DNA from: a virus
DNA: 24,262 nt
Reading direction: 5' to 3' (one strand)
IMG/VR virus record: IMGVR_UViG_3300023444_000008
Span: 1-24,262 of that record
Part shown: positions 3 to 11,204 of the stretch, piece by piece
How positions within the stretch are numbered: the first letter of the stretch is position 1
Layout of the letters: every line of letters starts with the position of its first letter
Notes under the pieces: model-generated
What the model was told of the DNA's origin: nothing
The model's database searches: none
Seen by the model: only the letters and a program-made list of their open reading frames with translations
Program-made: the position numbers and the translations under genes

Positions 3-1955
3 GAAAAGAAACCTGGACGCCCCAACATCCACGGCCTTATAACTTCTTACATAGAGACCGCCTACGGGGATGACGCCCGTATGATGAGGGCCTATGACTT
101 CGAGTATGCCGTAAGGTCTGCTGGTGATGACATTGACAAGGTTTCCATTACTCCGTTCCCTAATTACCGTACTTGGGAGATGGTTTCCCATCACCTTTAC
201 GCAGTGGATGACGGGAAATGTACCTTCAACGCCAAGATAGTCAAGAACCTTATCGGTAATGACCCAGGGGACAACCTTATTACCCACATAAACAGCCACA
301 ATCCGAGCATGATTGCCGCCGGAGCGAACAGGCTAAGTGGCGGTGATAAAGACGATGAACTCACTACCGGGGTTGAAGAGTGCATGGCCTCCGGTGTTCC
401 CATGCTTATGGTCGGTGTGTCTGGCATCGGTAAGACTACCAGGGTTAATAATTACTGCCGTAACAACGCAGAGCAGTTGGATATTAACCTGGCTCATGTT
501 GACCGTACTACCGTAATGGGGACGCCGGTTACGGCAGACCCTCTCAGTCTACTCAACGGGGATAGCCGTGAAGTCCTGGGAGAGAAAGACCCTATTTTCG
601 GGGAACTGAGCAAGATAGCCAAAGGGAAGGATATACCTTCGGCAGTGTCGCGTTTCGCTCCAGACTTGAACATAGCGAAGAAGGCCGAGGCAGCCGCCCA
701 AAAAGGCAGGCCCCTTGTCTTGTTCTTTGACGAGGTAAACAGGGGAAACTCTACTGTATGGAGCGCCGTGTTCGAGGCCGTTTCCGACCACAGGTACGGC
801 GGTGTGGAGTTCCCGGAAGACCTGGAAGTCAAGGTAGTATGCGCGGCGAATTTTGGGGAAGCCTACCAGGATGTGAACCGGCTTGACCCTGCCTTTGCCG
901 CCCGGTTCTGTATCTTCAACCACCCGGAAATCACGGATGAAGATGTGGAGGCCATCAAGAACTACTGGCGCTCAATAGACTATGACCGCCGGATAATGGA
1001 CTTCCTTGACACCCTGTCCCCGGATGAGTTCAAGGACTTAATCAGAAGTGTCGAGAGCCGGACAATGGAGAAATCCGCTTCTTCTACCAGGGGCTTCTCG
1101 GACTTCAACAGTGTCCTCAAGACCTTTGGGAAGACTGTGATGAGTGGCCGCCTTATCGACGGTGACAAGTTCCTATCGTTCTCCGTATGGTTGGGCGTAA
1201 CGGAGGACAGGGATGACGGAAACTACAGAGCAATACTGGATGACCTCATAACCAACTTGAACCGGATTCCGGCAAATTGGGCCGCCTATAACCAGGATGA
1301 CACTATTGACTTTGCCTCCAGAACCTACACGGCAGCCGCCTTTGTACGAGAAGCAAAGCAGACCGCCGAAGAGTGGAGTAAAGCCTACTCTATGACGGAT
1401 GAGACCCAACGCCCTGACCAGGTGAAATGGAACATAGACGCCATAAACAACATCAAAGAAAGCATCCGGTATTTCAATGACCGTGTGGCCGAATTGCGTA
1501 AGCACCAAATAGTCTCGATTCTAGGCCCTGGGACTATAACGGAGAACCTCATTATCCACTACAACAACGCTACAGGGGAAGAGAGAATTGAACTGCATGA
1601 AGTCAAGACTCCCGATCTGGCCGAGAAGTGGGTAGAACAGGAGATAACCCCGGCGAACCCGAGTGACTACTCCGAGAAGGCCGCCGCTATTGCCAGGGAG
1701 TACCATGACTTCTGGAAGAACAAGAAGCCTAAACTCCACACGGAAATCCTGAAGGCTCTGTTTTCAGCAATGAAGGCCGTACACCAGCAGATGTATGACT
1801 TCATTGCCATGTATCGTTCCGATACCACGGTGGCGGCTTTCTTTCAGGCAGCCGCAAGCCCGAAGGCCGACCGTGACATTGTAGAGGGAATCCTCGGTTT
1901 AGCCTGGGATGAAGACCAGGCCAAGGCATACTACAAAAAGCATAAGAAGAAATAA
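3..1955 (+). CDS. MoxR-like AAA+ ATPase, probably tandem-domain (5' end outside window)
   Basis: The reading frame is open to the left edge, so the ATG at 81 is probably internal. A complete AAA+ module is visible: Walker A GVSGIGKTT at nt 414-440, Walker B LVLFFDEVN ending at nt 740 with its Asp-Glu at 729-734, a sensor-1 Asn at 849-851 and a candidate arginine finger in DPAFAARF (Arg at 903). A lid-like helical region around nt 1080-1250 and about 220 more mostly helical residues follow. The segment before Walker A (nt 20-300, with FPNYRTWEMVSHHL) resembles the C-terminal lid of a MoxR-type ATPase, which suggests a first AAA module beyond the edge. MoxR ATPases work with VWA-domain partners in remodelling complexes. 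Such a partner is encoded three genes downstream. The AAA identity is firm; the tandem arrangement and assembly role are inference. Confidence 0.85.
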   Translation, partial: EKKPGRPNIHGLITSYIETAYGDDARMMRAYDFEYAVRSAGDDIDKVSITPFPNYRTWEMVSHHLYAVDDGKCTFNAKIVKNLIGNDPGDNLITHINSHNPSMIAAGANRLSGGDKDDELTTGVEECMASGVPMLMVGVSGIGKTTRVNNYCRNNAEQLDINLAHVDRTTVMGTPVTADPLSLLNGDSREVLGEKDPIFGELSKIAKGKDIPSAVSRFAPDLNIAKKAEAAAQKGRPLVLFFDEVNRGNSTVWSAVFEAVSDHRYGGVEFPEDLEVKVVCAANFGEAYQDVNRLDPAFAARFCIFNHPEITDEDVEAIKNYWRSIDYDRRIMDFLDTLSPDEFKDLIRSVESRTMEKSASSTRGFSDFNSVLKTFGKTVMSGRLIDGDKFLSFSVWLGVTEDRDDGNYRAILDDLITNLNRIPANWAAYNQDDTIDFASRTYTAAAFVREAKQTAEEWSKAYSMTDETQRPDQVKWNIDAINNIKESIRYFNDRVAELRKHQIVSILGPGTITENLIIHYNNATGEERIELHEVKTPDLAEKWVEQEITPANPSDYSEKAAAIAREYHDFWKNKKPKLHTEILKALFSAMKAVHQQMYDFIAMYRSDTTVAAFFQAAASPKADRDIVEGILGLAWDEDQAKAYYKKHKKK

Positions 1956-1965
1956 GGGGTTACGG

Positions 1966-2403
1966 ATGGATGTCTACTCTATCGAAATAGAAAGACTCCT
2001 GGAAAACCTGAAGATAGAAGACTCTGGAGAAGAGTACATTTACAAGGACGGTGGACACACTGTTATTGCTGATATTGAAACGATAGAAGTCTCGGAACTC
2101 TTGAAAAGGCTCCGGGACTCAATCTATGTCAATAAATACCTATCAGCCAAGCAGGGAGTCCGGGTTTTCTTGCGGAAAATCCCGGTTCCAGGTATGCCGG
2201 TCTTCGTGAATTTGAACTTCTTGTTTCCGGTTCGGAAGATGTTCAGCACCAGGCTACAGGCATCAATCGACATGGTACAGGTTTTCAAGGATGGCAGGCC
2301 CACTACTTTCCTGTCGCTACCGGCGGCTATGGGGTTCTTGTCCAGAACTGAGTATGTGGACTCCCTGGAGGCCCTTGTGGACATGGGAGGCAAGAATGGC
2401 TAA
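1966..2403 (+). CDS. Hypothetical protein between AAA ATPase and metallopeptidase-like gene
   Basis: This protein of 145 residues belongs to no family I recognise. The start at 1966 was chosen because TAAGGGG at 1953-1959 gives a Shine-Dalgarno match seven bases before the ATG; an upstream in-frame start would run back into the ATPase gene. The N-terminal half is acidic and probably helical (IEIERLLENLKIEDSGEEY). The middle is hydrophobic and beta-like (VRVFLRKIPVPGMPVFVNLNF). I see no signal peptide, transmembrane segment or catalytic motif. The next gene starts inside its stop region (ATG at 2396), so the two are probably translationally coupled. Its conserved-looking position inside the ATPase/metallopeptidase/VWA module suggests an adaptor or accessory subunit, which is inference from context only. 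Confidence 0.7.
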   Translation: MDVYSIEIERLLENLKIEDSGEEYIYKDGGHTVIADIETIEVSELLKRLRDSIYVNKYLSAKQGVRVFLRKIPVPGMPVFVNLNFLFPVRKMFSTRLQASIDMVQVFKDGRPTTFLSLPAAMGFLSRTEYVDSLEALVDMGGKNG

Positions 2404-3769
2404 GTACAACACCATAAGGCAACTGGCCCAGGCCGCCTTCGCAAAGATCACTACCATGAAGGACTTGCCTAAAGACGATCCTCTACCGCCGCCTTTTCTA
2501 TCTTTGACACTTGACAGTGATCCTATCTTCAATATAGGGCTGGATGTTCATGTGGAAAAGGGGGTTTACCGTTTCTCTAGGGCCATGTACTCCAATGAGT
2601 ATCAGTCGGTGGCGGTGAAAGAACGGCTGGAGAGAGGCAAGAAAGGCCAGGCCCTCGCAGACACTCTCCTGAAGGACGCCAACATAATGGCTATCTACAG
2701 TGAGTTGGAGGCGGCGGCCATAAAGCATGTGGTGGCAAAGATTCCAGACTACTACAAGGTCTTTAACTTCCTTCTGAGGGACTACAATAACGCGAATTGC
2801 GACACTCTGGCCGTGGGGTGGCACAAGACAAAGAAGCGATTCATTCTCTACATCAATCGAACTTTCGTGGTGAGTGCCGCCATTCAAAACCTTATTGGTG
2901 GCCGTGGGATAGGCCCCATCAAACGATTAAGGAAAGTCGGTGGTGGCTACCCTGCTGACCTGGCTTTGATTCTCGATGTGGCCGGTAACTTCCTCCATGA
3001 AGTCGGTCACGTTATTTTTCGGCATGTAGGTAAGAACGTGCAGGAATACAAAGACCTGGATCATGGGTTTGTAAACACCTACGCCGATACCGTGGTGGAC
3101 GCCAATGTCAGAGCCAGGATCGACTACTTGATCGAAAGCGGGATGAAATACGGGATTCCCAAAGACCCCCAGGAAGCCCTGAAGAAAGTCAGCATGTTCT
3201 CTTTACCGAGTTATGGTATGGCTGACATCATATCCTACAAGGTCAACGGCGCAACCAGATCCGATGTTTATGACATGATCTACCTCCACAGGAAGCCCTC
3301 GGGAGTGGACATGAGGCAGATGTCGAAAGTGAGACAGGACGATTTCGATGACCTATTGCCGGATGTGGCTTATCCAGGAATCCTCTTGGTGAATCCGTTC
3401 TCTCTGGTTCTCCAGGGAGTCCCGCAAATGGTGATATTCAAGATTATGAAGTACTTCCTGTCCTTCTTCGACAAGGAACAGATCAAGCCCGGCAAGAAGA
3501 AGATACCGCCCCCGAAGTTGGGAGACCCGCCGCCCCCGCCGCCGCAACCGGGACAGGGAGCGCCGCCGGGAGAGAAATCGGTGGAAATAGACCTGAAAGT
3601 CGGTGATTATGTGGTCTACGCCGAGACCGGGACAGCCGCGACAGTGACAGCCGTTCATGACGATGGAACCTATGACATCGAGGATCACGGCATATCCCCG
3701 CAAGAGTTATATGATGAAATTCTGAAGGACAAAGGGATTGACCCGAAGACAGGAAAGGAACTGAAATGA
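2396..3769 (+). CDS. HExxH metallopeptidase-like protein (DUF2201 N-terminal type)
   Basis: This protein of 457 residues carries a zinc-metallopeptidase signature, LHEVGHVIFRH, with His201-Glu202-x-x-His205 as likely metal ligands and catalytic Glu. Asp231 or Asp235 in YADTVVDANVRARID is a candidate third ligand. The arrangement recalls the putative metallopeptidase domain that in bacterial DUF2201 proteins sits N-terminal to a VWA-like domain. Here the VWA part is encoded by the next gene, overlapping by ATGA. Residues after about 360 form a Lys/Pro-rich linker containing a run of prolines, followed by a small beta-rich C-terminal domain (VGDYVVYAETGTAATVTAV). The start at 2396 has GGGAGG just upstream and overlaps the previous stop. 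No target is known, and the HExxH fold could be structural rather than proteolytic. Confidence 0.7.
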   Translation: MAKYNTIRQLAQAAFAKITTMKDLPKDDPLPPPFLSLTLDSDPIFNIGLDVHVEKGVYRFSRAMYSNEYQSVAVKERLERGKKGQALADTLLKDANIMAIYSELEAAAIKHVVAKIPDYYKVFNFLLRDYNNANCDTLAVGWHKTKKRFILYINRTFVVSAAIQNLIGGRGIGPIKRLRKVGGGYPADLALILDVAGNFLHEVGHVIFRHVGKNVQEYKDLDHGFVNTYADTVVDANVRARIDYLIESGMKYGIPKDPQEALKKVSMFSLPSYGMADIISYKVNGATRSDVYDMIYLHRKPSGVDMRQMSKVRQDDFDDLLPDVAYPGILLVNPFSLVLQGVPQMVIFKIMKYFLSFFDKEQIKPGKKKIPPPKLGDPPPPPPQPGQGAPPGEKSVEIDLKVGDYVVYAETGTAATVTAVHDDGTYDIEDHGISPQELYDEILKDKGIDPKTGKELK

Positions 3770-5397
3770 CCTATAGACCTCCTGCGGGTTCACCCGTAAA
3801 GAACGTGGTAAAGTCCGACCTGAAGGTTATCTCTCCGGGAGGCCGGGTAAACACCCCATCAGACCCGAACTCTGCTATGGAGCCGGACATGGGTACGGAG
3901 AACGTATTCGATCCTAGAATACCGCCTCAACAGCAGCCGCCCCAACAGCCACAGCAGCCGCCTCAACAGAAGCCATCTCCTGCGACCGGCAGTTCCGGCG
4001 GCAAGGGAGAGCGAGACAAAGACAAGGAGAACCAGAACCAGGCCGGTGACTCTCCGTCCGGTGATCCCCAGGGAAGTTCCGATCCAGGGGACAAAGCAGA
4101 CGATCCTTCCGGCGGTTCCTCCGCTATGGGAGACAAGGACAGTGCCGGGAAGCCGGGAAAGGACTCTCAGGATGCCTCCCAGGGGGCCGGGAAGACCTCT
4201 CCAGGGGATCAAACTGGTCAGGGTGCGCCCTTACCCCCTCAGAAGGGTAAAACGCCTCCAGGGGCCTCTACGGGGCCAAAAACAGGAGACCCTACGAAGG
4301 GCCAAAAGCAAGGGGGCCAGGCAGGAGACCAGGGCGGCGGCCCTAAAACCAAGGGAGACATGCAGGATGAGTTGAATGACCTCATGGGGGCCTTGGAAGA
4401 GTTGGAAGGGAACCGGCGAGACTCGAAGTCCGGCAATCTCAAGAGCAATGATTCAGAAGGTTCTGACGGCGATTCCGGGGCCGATCCAGTAGCAGACGCT
4501 CCGGCAGATTCCGGTCTGGATGCCACTATCTCTGAGGCCGTGAACGCCGCCGCCGATCAACTGAACCAGCAGGCAGCAGACCCAAATTCTCCGGGAACTG
4601 GTGACAGTGGGGACAAAGGGAAACCCTCTGCTTCTGACGTTCTGAGTTCTATGGGGGCCGGTAACATTCCCGATGTGAGCAACTATGTCCGGGGACTGAA
4701 GAAGACTAAACTTGCAGACGATTGGAGGGGCCTGCTCAAGAAACTACTCCAAAAGGCCGCCGGGATAAAAGAGGAACATTCTGCCATCACTCCAAGCAGG
4801 AGGATAGAAGGGCAATTTGGCCGGGAGATAGAGAAACCGGCTATCAGAAGGGTTATTATCTCTGTGGACTGCTCTGCCTCGATGGGGCCGGAGCAATTTC
4901 GCCAAGTGTTCGCAGAGTTGAAGAAATTAGGCTCTCACAGTATCATCAAGAAGCACATGAAGAAATCCGAGATGTATTCTTTCATGTGGGGTTCTTTCGA
5001 TGACGGACTCAATGACCCGGAGCGAAGGCGCGAAATAGCCAAAGACAATCTGGAGAGATTGCCGGGCAAGGGGTTCAGTGAGAATATCGTTTCCCAAATG
5101 CTTACGAAGAAGTTAAAAGGCATACGGGCGAGAGAGGGAACGGACTTTATCGGCTTCCATGCTGCCATGCTGAAAGTAGCGCCAAAGCCTGACATGGTTA
5201 TGGTGATGACGGACGGCGAGTTTTGGAATGAGACCGTATCGGGCGAAGAAGCAGCCGTTAAAAGGCTTCTGGCCCGGCTTTCAAAGAGTGGTCGGCTTAT
5301 TTGGGTGCTTGTCGGCTCCCGCTACAAGCCAGACATAAGGAGGCTAGACCCTCGGTTTCAGTCTCACACTATCGAGATTCGGGGTTCAGCAAAATAG
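3766..5397 (+). CDS. VWA-domain protein with long disordered N-terminus
   Basis: This protein of 543 residues has two parts. Residues 1 to about 300 are low-complexity: a Pro/Gln run near residues 50-67, then Gly/Asp/Ser/Lys-rich sequence, almost certainly disordered. From about residue 310 there is a folded domain. It opens with a helical segment and a SRR motif like the end of the DUF2201 metallopeptidase domain, followed by a VWA fold. The metal-ion-dependent adhesion site is complete: Asp368-x-Ser370-x-Ser372 in VDCSASMG, Thr459 in REGTDF and Asp483 in MTDGEFW. The start overlaps the previous stop as ATGA. VWA proteins of this kind are partners of MoxR ATPases; in the archaeal virus ATV a MoxR protein and a VWA protein are a known pair. 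A role in virion assembly here is inference. Confidence 0.85.
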   Translation: MTYRPPAGSPVKNVVKSDLKVISPGGRVNTPSDPNSAMEPDMGTENVFDPRIPPQQQPPQQPQQPPQQKPSPATGSSGGKGERDKDKENQNQAGDSPSGDPQGSSDPGDKADDPSGGSSAMGDKDSAGKPGKDSQDASQGAGKTSPGDQTGQGAPLPPQKGKTPPGASTGPKTGDPTKGQKQGGQAGDQGGGPKTKGDMQDELNDLMGALEELEGNRRDSKSGNLKSNDSEGSDGDSGADPVADAPADSGLDATISEAVNAAADQLNQQAADPNSPGTGDSGDKGKPSASDVLSSMGAGNIPDVSNYVRGLKKTKLADDWRGLLKKLLQKAAGIKEEHSAITPSRRIEGQFGREIEKPAIRRVIISVDCSASMGPEQFRQVFAELKKLGSHSIIKKHMKKSEMYSFMWGSFDDGLNDPERRREIAKDNLERLPGKGFSENIVSQMLTKKLKGIRAREGTDFIGFHAAMLKVAPKPDMVMVMTDGEFWNETVSGEEAAVKRLLARLSKSGRLIWVLVGSRYKPDIRRLDPRFQSHTIEIRGSAK

Positions 5398-5401
5398 TAT
5401 C

Positions 5402-5430
5402 TTGACAAACTGAACGGAGAGATGTACTAT
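5402..5430 (+). promoter_or_regulatory. Candidate sigma-70-type promoter at the protease gene start
   Basis: A perfect -35 box TTGACA at 5402-5407 is followed by a 17-base spacer and TACTAT at 5425-5430, which matches TATAAT at four of six positions. The -10 overlaps the annotated ATG (5429), so transcription would start near 5437 inside the gene. Such a message would serve downstream genes, including the capsid gene, or use the in-frame ATG at 5513. The same stretch contains GGAG at 5416-5419, the ribosome binding site of the annotated start. It may be a chance match. Confidence 0.35.
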
Positions 5431-7018
5431 GTTAGTAACGGATGTATATTACCCGGAAGAGGCTTCCCCACTTGTGGAAGACACTAAAAAGCCTCGACGC
5501 AAAGGTGTAATAATGACCGTGAAAGGCCCCTTCGGTAAGACTGAGGCCAAAAACAAGAACGATAGGATTTACACCAATGCCCTTTGGGACAGTATTCTGT
5601 CAAAGCCGGACATTCAGGACAGGCTCAAGGAGAGGGCGGTCTTCGGAGAAGCAGACCACCCGCAAACTCTTTTTCCGGCTCTGACCCGGATAAGCCACAT
5701 TGTAACGGCCCTGTCCCTGGACAAACAGAGCAATCAGATAATGGGGGAAGCCGATGTACTGGATACGCCCTCTGGCCGTATTATCAAGACTATCTATGAT
5801 GCCGGTGGAAAAATAGGCATCAGTTCTCGCGGGGCCGGAGGACTCCGTACCGAGGGAAATAAACAGATCGTAGATGAGAAGCAATACAGGTTCGGCGGTT
5901 TCGATTTCGTAGTGGAGCCGTCGATGGATAACGCCTACCCGAAGCGTATCCAGGAGTCTGTGGCCGGGATTCTCACTGAGTCAATAGACGAGGTAGAAAA
6001 GGACGTAGACTACTACCAGCAAATCCTCGAACGGATTTGCCCTGACGGGAATGTGAGGCTGGAAAGCGTGGACGGTCAACTTTGTGTCCTCCACGAAGGC
6101 CAGAACCTCATGGAGTCCGAGGCTCCAACCGAGGCTCCTACCAATCCCTCTGACACTTTCAGGGAGGCCGAGGGAGTAACGCAAGAAGCGAACACTTTTC
6201 GCAGCAAAGAGAAGTTTCTGCTCAAGCGTTTGCAGGAGATGAGGGAGGCATACGCCGATCTTCGCAAGAGGATGGCGCAAAACCCCATCACTGAGCAGGC
6301 TGTAACTGAGAGTGTTGAAGAGGGAGAGATTCAGCAACCGCAAGAAACACCCTCCGATTCACTCCAAGCAATACAACTCGAACAACATCGAGGGGAAATC
6401 GAGGCCCTTCGCCTGGAAATTCAGGAAGCCGAGACCGTCATTAGCGACCTTCAACGGCAAGTCATCGAGCAAGACAAGGTGATCCGTGAAGAAAGAAGAC
6501 GATCCAAGGCGGCTGAAACTCCGGCCACTATCGAGGAAAGCACCGAGTACAAGACCTTGGTGGAACAGGTGGCCGACTACCAGAGCAAACTCGAATCCTC
6601 CGAGATGGAAAACAACGTCACTGAGAAACGGGTTCAATCCCTGCAAGAAAGCAACAAGAGGCTGAAGGCCCAGGTTGCTCAAGACCAAGGCAAAATGGAA
6701 GAACTGCAAGAGGCTCTGATGGAACTGGAACAGGAAAACCTGGCCCTCTATATCGAGTACAAGGCTTCCGACCTGGCCCTGGATTCAAGCAAGTTGGTTG
6801 ACGCTCTACCCTCGAACCCTTCCAGAGAGGACGTTGACAAAGTGGCCTCTTTGATGGTGGAGAGCCGCACCAAGCAAACCTTCGGTGAGGACTTGCCACT
6901 ATTCGGAGAGAGTAACAAAGCACCTGGACAGGCCGGTCAGAAGGTTATCGTTGAAAGCCGGTCTCCCAAGAGTGGAACCAAAAGCCGTATCTCAGGCATG
7001 ATCGGCAAACTAAAATAG
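5429..7018 (+). CDS. Prohead core protease fused to scaffold
   Basis: This protein of 529 residues has a T4 gp21-like protease at residues 1 to about 175 and a long coiled-coil domain behind it. Protease features are GEADHPQ with likely catalytic His77, GISSRGAGG with Ser132/Ser133, and FDFVVEPS with Asp159 as the third-residue candidate. These fit the herpesvirus-type serine protease fold of prohead proteases. Residues about 235-450 are rich in Glu/Gln/Lys/Leu heptads, and the protein ends in a basic tail (SRISGMIGKLK), as expected of a scaffold like T4 gp22. In T4 the two are separate genes. Leu-x-Glu cleavage motifs LTE184-S and LME229-S lie between the parts, so self-release is plausible. 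GGAG lies nine bases before the ATG. Identity as protease is firm, scaffold role strong. Confidence 0.88.
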   Translation: MLVTDVYYPEEASPLVEDTKKPRRKGVIMTVKGPFGKTEAKNKNDRIYTNALWDSILSKPDIQDRLKERAVFGEADHPQTLFPALTRISHIVTALSLDKQSNQIMGEADVLDTPSGRIIKTIYDAGGKIGISSRGAGGLRTEGNKQIVDEKQYRFGGFDFVVEPSMDNAYPKRIQESVAGILTESIDEVEKDVDYYQQILERICPDGNVRLESVDGQLCVLHEGQNLMESEAPTEAPTNPSDTFREAEGVTQEANTFRSKEKFLLKRLQEMREAYADLRKRMAQNPITEQAVTESVEEGEIQQPQETPSDSLQAIQLEQHRGEIEALRLEIQEAETVISDLQRQVIEQDKVIREERRRSKAAETPATIEESTEYKTLVEQVADYQSKLESSEMENNVTEKRVQSLQESNKRLKAQVAQDQGKMEELQEALMELEQENLALYIEYKASDLALDSSKLVDALPSNPSREDVDKVASLMVESRTKQTFGEDLPLFGESNKAPGQAGQKVIVESRSPKSGTKSRISGMIGKLK

Positions 7019-7027
7019 GAGTGAATT

Positions 7028-8470
7028 ATGTCCGACCAAGTGACAATGGAAATCTACAATGAACAAACCGCCGAGGTTTTCGGCCAGGCCGCACCCTTGG
7101 TCGAGGGCCGGTGGAAAGAACACTGCGATGGCATCCGAGAGGCTATCCCCGAGATCGGGGATTGGGAAATAGCCACTACCGCCATCTGCCTCGAAAACGT
7201 CTACAAGCAGTACCGCCGTAACATGGGCATGGACATGGATGCCCTGCTGGAATCCTCCAACACCGGAGCCATCGCAAACTTTATCAGACACGGTTTCGAC
7301 ATCATTGCCGCCGTGATGCCGAGTCTCATCGCCAACGATGTCATCTCGATCCAGCCGTTGACCCGGCGCAAAGGTGAAATCTTCTACCAGGAATACCACT
7401 ACGGCACGACCAAGGGCCGGGTGACTTCCGGGGACAAGATGTTCGCCAGGGATGTAGTCGGAAACGCCGAAATCTGGTACAGCCATGAAACCGTGCCGGA
7501 GGAACTGGTAGCGACCAACGGTGGAGTCGCGGGAGCCGGGCCTTTCGCCGGTAAAGCCGACGATGCTCTGCCGGGCGTGGCCGGTACTATGGTTCTCAAG
7601 ATGGCGAAGGACGGCGGTGGATTCCTGACCGCCACCGATGACGGAGCCGGGAACCTGACCGGAGCCGATGTCAATGCCGGAACCTGGAACCGGGAGACCG
7701 GGGACATCACCGTGACCTGGAACAGCAACGCCGCCGCCAATGCCGAATTGCTGGCTACCTACCGTTGCGACTTCGAGAGAAACCCCGAGAACATTCCCGA
7801 AGTAGACCTGTCCATCTCCAGCGAGAGCGTGGAAGCCCTTTCCAGGGCGCTCCGTTGCAAATACACCCTGGACTTCGGGTACGACATGCAGGAAGCCTTC
7901 GGGCTGAACCCGGAACAACTGCTTTCGACCGGCCTGGCCTCCGAGATTCGCAAGGAGATCGACGGCGAACTGTTGCAGTTCCTTCTGGACAGTGCCGAGG
8001 CTCCAGCCCCGACCGTGTGGAACAGTGCTGCCGGTGGCGGTATTTCCTACGCCGAACACAAGTGGACTTTTATCGACAGCATCATCGAAGCGTCCAACAA
8101 CATCTTCGACGCTACCCGCCGGGCCGCCGGTACTTTCATCATCGCCGGAATGGGTGTCTGCAACGTCCTCGAAAGCCTGACGCCGCGCTTCCAGAGACAG
8201 GGCAAGGTTCAGTCCGGGCCTCACTTCCTGGGAACGCTGGACAACACCTGGCGCATTTACAAGAACCCCTTCTTCGACCGCAACACTTACCTGGTCGGCT
8301 ACAAGGGCGACCTGTGGATCGAGGCCGGTTGCGTGTACGCTCCGTACATGCCGGTTTTCATGACCAGGCCGATCATGCTGGACGATTTCATCAACCGGCG
8401 TGGTATCAAGACCAGTTACGCCAAGCACAAAGTCAACGGTCTTTTCTACTCGGTCGGTCAGATCGCCTAG
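7028..8470 (+). CDS. Major capsid protein (T4 gp23-like)
   Basis: This protein of 480 residues is close in size to T4 gp23 and follows the protease-scaffold gene, the usual place. It has the gp23-type layout: an N-terminal part with candidate propeptide, an N-arm with MPSLIANDVISIQPL, a central region (EALSRALRCKYTLDFGYDMQE) and a C-terminal part ending in FYSVGQIA. Two Leu/Ile-x-Glu sites fit the T4 prohead protease rule, IRE38-A and LLE75-S; the second would remove a propeptide close in length to the 65 residues removed in T4. Residues about 183-250 look like an inserted beta domain (DDGAGNLTG, then RETGDITVTW). AGGAG at 7017-7021 precedes the ATG by six bases. Codons are strongly biased to C/G endings, as expected for the most abundant virion protein. 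Confidence 0.9.
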   Translation: MSDQVTMEIYNEQTAEVFGQAAPLVEGRWKEHCDGIREAIPEIGDWEIATTAICLENVYKQYRRNMGMDMDALLESSNTGAIANFIRHGFDIIAAVMPSLIANDVISIQPLTRRKGEIFYQEYHYGTTKGRVTSGDKMFARDVVGNAEIWYSHETVPEELVATNGGVAGAGPFAGKADDALPGVAGTMVLKMAKDGGGFLTATDDGAGNLTGADVNAGTWNRETGDITVTWNSNAAANAELLATYRCDFERNPENIPEVDLSISSESVEALSRALRCKYTLDFGYDMQEAFGLNPEQLLSTGLASEIRKEIDGELLQFLLDSAEAPAPTVWNSAAGGGISYAEHKWTFIDSIIEASNNIFDATRRAAGTFIIAGMGVCNVLESLTPRFQRQGKVQSGPHFLGTLDNTWRIYKNPFFDRNTYLVGYKGDLWIEAGCVYAPYMPVFMTRPIMLDDFINRRGIKTSYAKHKVNGLFYSVGQIA

Positions 8471-9623: not shown

Positions 9624-11204
9624 ATGTCTGTAAAAAGTATCCTGGAGCAACTTCGAGCCAAGCAGGAGGATACCGGCGTTGCTATCGTCTTAGGAGAGAG
9701 CAACAACGGGGACAATACCCCGGAACCGGAGGACGCCATCCTGGACGCCGAATTGACTCCCGACATTCTGAAGGCTATGGAAGAGGCTGACGCCGCACCG
9801 CCTTCGGAAGAAGAACTCATGGAGATCATGGATGACTTCGACATCGGGCTTTATGACCTCATAGACCTGGCGAGTCTAGCCTATGCTCCTATGAGTGAAG
9901 AAGAGTTCGATGAGGCCCTTGCTAATTGGGGCGGGGAAGCCGACTTGAGCGAAGAGGAAGAGGATGACGCCGATGACGCCGGTGACGTCGAGACTCAGAC
10001 CGAGGACTCCGATGAGACCCTGGATGAAGCGAAGCGTGTAGGCCGTGGCGGTCGAAAGAAGAAGAAGAAGGACGCCCCAAAGAAAGACGATAAGAAGGCC
10101 AAGGCCGGTTCGGGGGCCAAAGCAGCCAAAGCAGCCAAGGCCGCCAAGAAGTCCGGCGGCGGCAAGTCCGGCGGCGGCAAGTCCGGCGGCGGTGGAGGCG
10201 GCGGGGGCGCGATGTTCAAGCCCGAGTACCGTGGAACCCACTACCGCGACAAGACCGGGAAAGCGCATCCCCGTAGAGACCCGAAGACCGGCGAAAAGGC
10301 GAAGACGGGATTCGACAAGTACTACAACCGGGACGCCTTCAACCAGGTTTTCGCTACCAACCTGTTCGCCAGGAAAGCAAAGCCCCCGAAGGAAATGCGA
10401 ACTCCCAGGGGTAACAGGATCAACCTGAAACACTACACCCCTTCCGGTTTTTGGGGATGTGTGAGGAAGATCATCAAGGGCGGCGTCATCAAGAAAGTGA
10501 AGAGGCCCGACAAGTACGGCACAGGCAAGGGAGGCAAGGTTTTTGCGGCCAGGGCCTTGTGTGCCATGATCGCATCTATGGGGCCGGGCAAGGTCAAGAG
10601 GCCCAAACCCATGATGAAGAAGTGGCGTGACACTTTCGCCAAGTGGCGTCAGAGCAAGTACAAAGGCCCCCATCCGTACAAAGGCTCCAAAGAGATGAAG
10701 AAGACCTGGCCCGGATTGAAGAAGGGCGGTTACACCGGAACCAAGTTCAAGGGACATTCCCCGTCCTATCAGGCCGCCGGAACGGGTGAACCGAACCCGG
10801 CTGACATCCTCATCGAAGGTCTGGCTCAGTACTTTCCCGAGGCCGAAGAGATCGAGAAGATTCTCGGAGTCATCGACATCTACATGGAAGGCCGCCTGTC
10901 GGAAGACGAGTTCGACGCCTACCTGGAGAGGAAGATGGAAGCGGCGGGTATCGAAGATGAAGAGACCGCCGAAGTCCTGGAGGCCATCAAGAGCCTTTCT
11001 TCCGAGATGGCTTTGATCGAGGACGGCGTGGAACTGGAACTCGAATCGGGACAAGCCCCCGATGATGAGGAAGACCCGGAGGATGAAGAGGAAGACCTGG
11101 AGGAAGAGGGAGTCACCGAAAAGACCAAGGAAGACCCCGAAGACTCCGAGGATGAAGACTCCGAGGAAGAAGAAGACGATATGGAGGATGAAGAGGAAGA
11201 CTGA
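9624..11204 (+). CDS. Charge-segregated structural protein, histone-H1-like linker, unknown function
   Basis: This protein of 526 residues matches no family I know. It has four zones. Residues 1-135 are very acidic. Residues 136-197 are a Lys/Ala/Gly linker with KKKKK, an AKAAKAAKAAKK run like histone H1 tails, and SGGGK repeats ending in poly-Gly. Residues 198 to about 385 are a strongly basic core rich in Lys, Arg, Trp and Tyr. Residues 390-526 start helical (ILGVIDIYMEGRLSEDEFDAYL) and end in an almost purely Asp/Glu tail. LDE135-A at the acidic-to-basic border fits the prohead protease rule. Codon use resembles that of the capsid gene, which suggests high expression. It lies between neck genes. 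An internal, DNA-contacting head protein with an acidic propeptide is a reasonable hypothesis; a neck or decoration protein is the alternative. Confidence 0.8.
   Translation: MSVKSILEQLRAKQEDTGVAIVLGESNNGDNTPEPEDAILDAELTPDILKAMEEADAAPPSEEELMEIMDDFDIGLYDLIDLASLAYAPMSEEEFDEALANWGGEADLSEEEEDDADDAGDVETQTEDSDETLDEAKRVGRGGRKKKKKDAPKKDDKKAKAGSGAKAAKAAKAAKKSGGGKSGGGKSGGGGGGGGAMFKPEYRGTHYRDKTGKAHPRRDPKTGEKAKTGFDKYYNRDAFNQVFATNLFARKAKPPKEMRTPRGNRINLKHYTPSGFWGCVRKIIKGGVIKKVKRPDKYGTGKGGKVFAARALCAMIASMGPGKVKRPKPMMKKWRDTFAKWRQSKYKGPHPYKGSKEMKKTWPGLKKGGYTGTKFKGHSPSYQAAGTGEPNPADILIEGLAQYFPEAEEIEKILGVIDIYMEGRLSEDEFDAYLERKMEAAGIEDEETAEVLEAIKSLSSEMALIEDGVELELESGQAPDDEEDPEDEEEDLEEEGVTEKTKEDPEDSEDEDSEEEEDDMEDEEED
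10149..10193 (+). repeat. 15-base tandem repeat encoding SGGGK
   Basis: Three copies of AAGTCCGGCGGCGGC (last base changed in the third) lie at 10149-10163, 10164-10178 and 10179-10193, directly before a poly-glycine codon run. They encode the flexible linker of the charge-segregated protein. The unit keeps the reading frame. Confidence 0.9.

Follow-up and report, generated by a model that had tools for sequence, protein, structure and literature searches.

Results

An ATPase, metallopeptidase and VWA block next to the phage head genes

The virus record IMGVR_UViG_3300023444_000008, analysed over its whole length of 24,262 bp and called the window here, belongs to a contractile-tailed phage with T4-type head genes. 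Positions 3-5397 hold a cassette of four open reading frames (ORFs), all on the + strand and encoding, in order, an AAA+ ATPase, a small protein, a protein with the HExxH motif of metallopeptidases and a von Willebrand factor A (VWA) protein with a metal ion-dependent adhesion site (MIDAS). The S77 prohead protease gene starts 31 bp after the VWA gene, and the gp23 capsid gene comes after the protease. By analogy, we favour with moderate confidence a reading in which the block encodes an AAA+-driven remodelling and processing machine, with an active peptidase, that would serve head (prohead or portal) assembly. This reading is supported by the domain make-up of the proteins, the intact Walker A and B, MIDAS and HExxH residues, a fusion in one relative and the conserved place of the block.

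An initial annotation, made from the letters of the sequence, had described an overlapping four-gene module immediately before the prohead protease. ORF analysis confirmed the gene coordinates and the place of the module, and two of the overlaps are real: 8 bp between the small and HExxH genes, and 4 bp between the HExxH and VWA genes. The junction of the ATPase and small genes depends on the start codon chosen, since the ATG at 1909 gives a 47-bp overlap and the ATG at 1966, preceded by GGGG-TTACGG, a 10-bp gap.

Conservation of the gene order in divergent relatives

Relatives came from tblastn with the AAA protein and from viral contigs, which were scanned with alignments of the AAA and capsid proteins and with a DNA pattern coding for PFP(N/H)(Y/F)R(T/S)WE, a stretch conserved between the two AAA domains of the relatives. 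The tblastn search gave matches in Rhizobium, Vibrio and Alteromonas phages. Single-sequence scans of the viral contigs with the HExxH protein, the VWA protein and the major capsid protein found no relatives, and the L099 VWA and L098 HExxH proteins (both described below) had no match in phage records by tblastn. The pattern occurs in ten stretches of genome_contigs, and the cassette proteins match none of the ORFs there.

Gene maps revealed the order tandem AAA, small protein, HExxH, VWA, S77 protease and gp23 in the window and in G001 (L095), G002 (L096), G003 (L097), G005 (L098) and G006 (L099), with HExxH and VWA fused in G001 and a small protein of 131-158 amino acids (aa) in the mapped relatives. 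Another contig, L046, has its start within the final 84 codons of a VWA gene that directly precedes the protease; this VWA C-terminus was found by hmmsearch at E=3e-5 and was the sole match with 740 decoy ORFs from cassette-less phages alongside. The association with the capsid genes that the initial annotation had noticed was thereby borne out, the block standing directly before the protease in seven divergent contigs (the window and six others). G002, G003, G005 and G006 have a T4-type portal gene upstream of the block, which in these four phages thus sits between portal and protease; the G001 portal is far off. The spacing from block to protease is 31-194 bp, on the same strand as the head genes. 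Since the window capsid protein is only 33-42% identical to those of the other cassette phages, and the split HExxH proteins share 14-26% identity overall, the gene order has outlasted the sequence. The four-gene order also occurs in Rhizobium phage RHph_TM30 (TM30; Kleczkowskaviridae), in which gp273-gp276 are a tandem AAA protein of 1174 aa followed by proteins of 233, 471 (with HEILH) and 507 aa (with a MIDAS and a disordered linker).

Two to four genes lie between the portal and AAA genes (L096 418-4196, L097 1190-4574, L098 14100-17549 and L099 12766-16329) and could be clients or members of the cassette; this region is missing from the window. Within L099, at least one pair of them is paralogous (profile E=2e-8). 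Most of these genes could not be linked between relatives, nor could the small protein be linked by sequence between most lineages (best E=0.017), and for that reason we do not claim them as parts of the system.

The HExxH and VWA proteins as halves of DUF2201

Profile comparison identifies the HExxH and VWA proteins of the window as the two halves of DUF2201 (PF13203+PF09967), as had been suggested at the outset. Direct Pfam, PHROGs and NCBIfam scans with the two proteins were nearly empty. Compared with 16 fused phage DUF2201 proteins, a profile of seven HExxH sequences reached a profile-profile probability of 96.7% (E=4e-10) and the VWA profile 98.6% (E=1e-15), the latter alignment spanning the SRR/NRR stretch; column-shuffled control profiles had no match in the same test. 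The VWA protein retains the SRR motif from the end of the first half, another point of the initial annotation that held, within a stretch shared with fused DUF2201 proteins. In a Pfam scan of five fused proteins, DUF2201_N passed in all five and the DUF2201 VWA-like domain in four, and the L099 VWA protein passes PF13519 and matches phrog_1314. The H, E, H, N and D of the HExxH...N-x3-D signature are invariant in an alignment of 19 split and fused proteins. The residue Asp368, proposed earlier as a metal-site residue, proved to be the first of the MIDAS motif DCSAS.

The two halves are joined in nature. In G001 (L095/L082) HExxH and VWA form a single 1157-aa chain, connected by about 500 residues of acidic repeats, and in G006 the linker is a separate gene of its own (323 aa). 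A small stretch resembling SH3/KOW domains stands at the C-end of the window HExxH protein; in L095, L097 and L098 it lies within the linker, and in L099 it opens the VWA protein. Because this stretch recurs at differing positions, one ancestral chain appears to have been broken at different points in the relatives. Canonical DUF2201 has both domains in one polypeptide, as L095/L082 does; they are on two genes in the window, and we therefore regard the window cassette as a split DUF2201 variant and not as a canonical member.

Members of phrog_1314 such as L005 11063-12187 and L004 8673-9995 contain DUF2201_N and the DUF2201 VWA-like domain, while PHROGs and phage records call them 'HNH endonuclease'. 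We rejected this label, the members that we examined being DUF2201 proteins with HExxH and MIDAS; it looks wrong and has spread to phage records.

A tandem AAA+ ATPase

In the relatives, gene maps give an ATPase of 1129-1353 aa with two AAA domains per chain, and since they carry such tandem chains the window gene is the 3' part of a two-AAA gene. One correction to the initial annotation is that the ATPase gene is incomplete, being cut at the contig start. The AAA domain present in the window has Walker A, Walker B and the arginine finger. It scored 21.6 bits against AAA_5 in a Pfam scan (cut-off 22), and L095, L097, L099 and TM30 are above that cut-off, TM30 also being above the one for AAA_3. 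From sequence, the window ATPase is assigned to the MoxR-like/AAA_5 class of AAA+ proteins, an assignment that does not go down to the MoxR subfamily; canonical MoxR proteins have one AAA domain per chain and form a hexameric ring, and the relatives have two domains per chain.

The AAA protein also matches phrog_249 ('porphyrin biosynthesis') weakly, at E=0.013. This match, together with the existence of MoxR-VWA pairs such as NorQD that insert metals (PMC13036017), could be taken to indicate a machine like CobST or NorQD, loading a metal or cofactor into a virion or host protein. We consider this very improbable: no gene for a metalloprotein client, cobaltochelatase or chelatase could be recognised either in the window or in the sampled neighbours that were scanned, and the best matches of the cassette are to DUF2201 and phrog_1297/1314, not to CobS/CobT. 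Of the dedicated head or portal assembly machine put forward in the initial annotation, the gene-order association stands and the metal-insertion part found no support.

In L095 (8856-12602), and also in L011 (8081-11824), the first AAA domain carries an intein (Intein_splicing, Hint) soon after the Walker A region.

The reach of the head-gene link and the case for a peptidase

Several observations weigh against a head-assembly machine with an active peptidase. The TM30 module, which is like the cassette in gene order, differs from it in lying at 121-129 kb on the + strand, about 70 kb from the terminase-portal-protease-capsid cluster (199-206 kb, - strand). Pairs of a single-AAA gene and a fused DUF2201 gene adjoin primase, SbcC-like, ligase, tRNA nucleotidyltransferase or DNA polymerase genes. 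The gp24/25 genes of phage N4 appear to be such a pair of AAA and fused DUF2201. They are middle genes (PMC4193335). Whole-record searches of SP-15, LIS04, GXN1, phiXF1 and QdP_Psa3 found no tandem AAA. As to the peptidase, the third metal ligand is apparently Glu in TM30 gp275 and Asp elsewhere, and a full-length HExxH model from five sequences had a mean confidence (predicted local distance difference test, pLDDT) of 42 and was unusable, the C-end barrel being its sole well-modelled part. An AlphaFold2 model of the HExxH core, from the 19-sequence alignment, was better (pLDDT 77, predicted template modelling score 0.74). Its best PDB matches were mostly zincins (IrrE, BlaR1, abylysin, jannalysin, selecase, ArdC and Wss1), and because their Z scores were 3.6-4.8 and unrelated proteins were mixed in, the model is no more than suggestive of a zincin fold; the zincin matches speak for the peptidase, and their weakness against it. 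A Foldseek search of the core against the PDB had no significant match, and against BFVD none was below E=0.001.

The initial annotation had named the same module at unrelated genome positions in relatives as evidence against its own proposal, and in part this is what we see, with the four-gene module away from the head genes in Rhizobium phages and the fused form among DNA-metabolism genes. For this reason we conclude that the link to head genes is strong but confined to one lineage. In the capsid tree the cassette phages fall into two groups, the window and G001 with L046, and G002 with G003, G005 and G006; an adjoining group of SP-15, LIS04, GXN1 and L047 is without the cassette. Near capsid relatives that have no tandem AAA include the Thornevirus phages SP-15 and LIS04 and Streptococcus phage GXN1, and in L047 portal and protease are separated by one small gene only, so the module is optional for this capsid type.

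The unlinked TM30 module, the DNA-metabolism neighbours of the fused relatives and the middle genes of N4 would all suit a general phage-physiology machine, acting in host takeover, the replication complex or counter-defence and found in the head cluster of this lineage by chance. Chance fits poorly with seven divergent contigs that keep the block directly before the protease, four with the portal upstream, and with its tight, same-strand spacing to the head genes, and we think this explanation unlikely. Somewhat better, though still improbable in our view, is a chaperone of the MoxR-VWA type that serves virion assembly, its HExxH domain being structural or regulatory and remodelling occurring without cleavage. 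MoxR-VWA machines are usually peptidase-free (NorQD, PMC13036017; ATV p618/p892, PMC3893208), the adjoining S77 protease could do the processing, and the third ligand is incompletely conserved. Against this, HExxH is invariant in 19 of 19 proteins despite the low identity among the split ones, as a catalytic site would be.

A model for the cassette

In the machine with an active peptidase that we favour, the cassette would encode a late-gene AAA+ machine acting in prohead or portal morphogenesis. The AAA chains may form a ring, for example of three two-domain chains giving six AAA positions. Tethered by its long flexible linker, the VWA subunit would hold a client through the MIDAS metal and dock on the ring as NorD does on NorQ, and ATP-driven pulling or twisting through this tether would remodel the client. 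The client would most likely be a head protein or assembly factor, such as the portal, the scaffold part of the protease gene or the products of genes upstream of AAA. The HExxH subunit, kept in the complex by the linker, the small barrel or the small protein, would cleave or trim the exposed client and so complement the S77 protease. No difference in working would be expected between the split and fused forms, since both place peptidase and MIDAS domain in one complex.

A more specific version is possible, and we offer it tentatively. In it, a lineage of T4-like phages would have a hitherto undescribed machine for head morphogenesis, fixed between portal and prohead protease, with a MoxR ring of two AAA domains per chain. 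A MIDAS domain on a long disordered tether would capture the scaffold, the portal or an assembly factor and pass it on to a metallopeptidase subunit dedicated to the task, so that prohead maturation would have, in addition to the S77 protease, a second proteolytic step driven by ATP.

Comparison with known systems

Iyer et al. (2021, PMC7824862) proposed that a pair of MoxR and metallopeptidase-vWA genes in group 2.2 jumbo phages takes part in assembling the virion and in peptidolytic processing. Adjacent MoxR and metallopeptidase/vWA genes are also present here, as separate genes in the window, whereas the metallopeptidase and vWA of the jumbo phages are fused in one cochaperone; the cassette differs further in its tandem AAA, its separate small gene, its split halves with a 300-aa linker and its fixed place between portal and prohead protease. 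A virion-assembly role for the jumbo-phage-type system rests here on gene order, and in that paper it was likewise a proposal.

Proteins of the DUF2201/COG3864 family (PF13203+PF09967; phrog_1314), such as Alteromonas phage AD45-P1 gp51 and Vibrio phage D497 CAL9959031, share with the cassette the zincin-like half with HExxH...N-x3-D, the SRR linker, the MIDAS VWA half and an adjoining MoxR-type AAA (phrog_1297). Unlike the cassette, they are encoded by one gene of 370-530 aa, next to a single-domain AAA of about 350-435 aa and mostly among DNA-metabolism genes.

In the NorQ-NorD remodelling machine, the ATPase remodels the linker of its VWA partner (PMC13036017). The likeness is a MoxR-like ring with a VWA protein that acts through a linker; NorQ-NorD differs in inserting metal into nitric oxide reductase, in being a single-AAA hexamer and in having no HExxH partner. 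The p618/p892 pair of the archaeal Acidianus two-tailed virus (ATV), a virus-encoded MoxR-VWA pair tied to tail formation (PMC3893208), is similar in its link to virion morphogenesis, but it serves extracellular tail growth in an unrelated archaeal virus and is without the metallopeptidase half. Midasin/Rea1 (Mdn1) is an analogy only: a multi-AAA, dynein-related chain whose MIDAS domain serves to strip assembly factors from a particle. Unlike the cassette, it unites MIDAS and six AAA domains in a single eukaryotic chain of 5000 aa, and it has no peptidase.

Features of the window and its neighbours

The coordinates of the cassette and of its conserved neighbours are collected in Table 1.

Table 1. 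Predicted features of the cassette and the adjoining head genes (positions in the window; residues in the respective protein).
Feature	Position	Strand	Remark
MoxR/dynein-class AAA+ ATPase, C-terminal part (second AAA domain of tandem chain), 650 aa visible	3..1955	+	open at contig start
Walker A GVSGIGKT	414-437	+	
Walker B LFFDEVNR	720-743	+	
Arginine-finger region FAARF	894-908	+	
Small protein, 145 aa (164 aa from ATG 1909)	1966..2403 (or 1909..2403)	+	position common to all relatives
HExxH metallopeptidase-like protein, 457 aa, N-terminal half of split DUF2201	2396..3769	+	
HEVGH zinc-binding motif, residues 201-205	2996..3010	+	invariant in 19/19 split and fused proteins
N227-x3-D231 motif; D231 candidate third metal ligand	3074..3088	+	
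Small beta-barrel (SH3/KOW-like) domain, C-end of HExxH protein	3593..3730	+	model pLDDT 74-84; sequence motif in relatives
VWA (MIDAS) protein, 543 aa, C-terminal half of split DUF2201	3766..5397	+	
Disordered P/G/S/D-rich linker, 300 residues, N-terminal in VWA protein	3766-4665	+	
SRR motif, residues 344-346, inside WxxxL...SRR stretch shared with first-half end of fused DUF2201	4795..4803	+	
MIDAS motif DCSAS, residues 368-372 (D368, S370, S372)	4867..4881	+	
TDGE strand, residues 482-485, MIDAS Asp 483	5209..5220	+	
S77 prohead protease (T4 gp21-like), 529 aa	5429..7018	+	PF03420 E=4e-14; conserved cassette neighbour
gp23-type major capsid protein	7028..8470	+	PF07068 E=8e-58; conserved cassette neighbour

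Behind its S77 domain, the window protease (5429-7018) has a long coiled-coil C-terminal region and may be a protease-scaffold fusion. A promoter-like site in the gap between the VWA and protease genes, at 5402-5430 (TTGACA-17-TACTAT, 10/12 with a 17-nt spacer), was considered and rejected: the count is not above that in shuffled sequences, and the site overlaps the protease start. Between the neck and tail genes, the window encodes at 9624-11204 a 526-aa protein whose ends are acidic and whose middle is basic and rich in Lys and Gly (KKSGGGKSGGG repeats); it had no PHROGs match and no clear homologue among the searched loci.

In G005 the capsid gene (L098 1753-4571) is interrupted by an insertion with a 306-aa ORF, and the capsid gene of SP-15 likewise carries an endonuclease-bearing interruption. 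Upstream of the cassette, G004 (L011 1-3720) encodes a very long, highly repetitive protein with SVSDSVSVF-type repeats. The protein encoded next has 609 aa, and a concanavalin/laminin-G-like domain is present in its counterpart in G001.

Discussion

The general idea of MoxR and metallopeptidase-vWA proteins working in virion assembly is already known, having been published in 2021 by analogy with ATV (PMC7824862). What is new here is that the AAA is tandem, that the DUF2201 chain, with its long disordered linker, is broken in varying ways, and that the block has a fixed place between portal and prohead protease; the literature that we searched contained no description of this arrangement. The analysis also corrects the 'HNH endonuclease' label of phrog_1314. 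Genes for MoxR, metallopeptidase and VWA proteins are listed in the core set of N4-like phages (gp25, vWFA domain) and also occur in jumbo phages. In the lineage studied here the system is linked to the portal-protease-capsid cluster; this link provides it with a concrete and testable role and suggests an AAA+-driven step in the prohead maturation of some phages.

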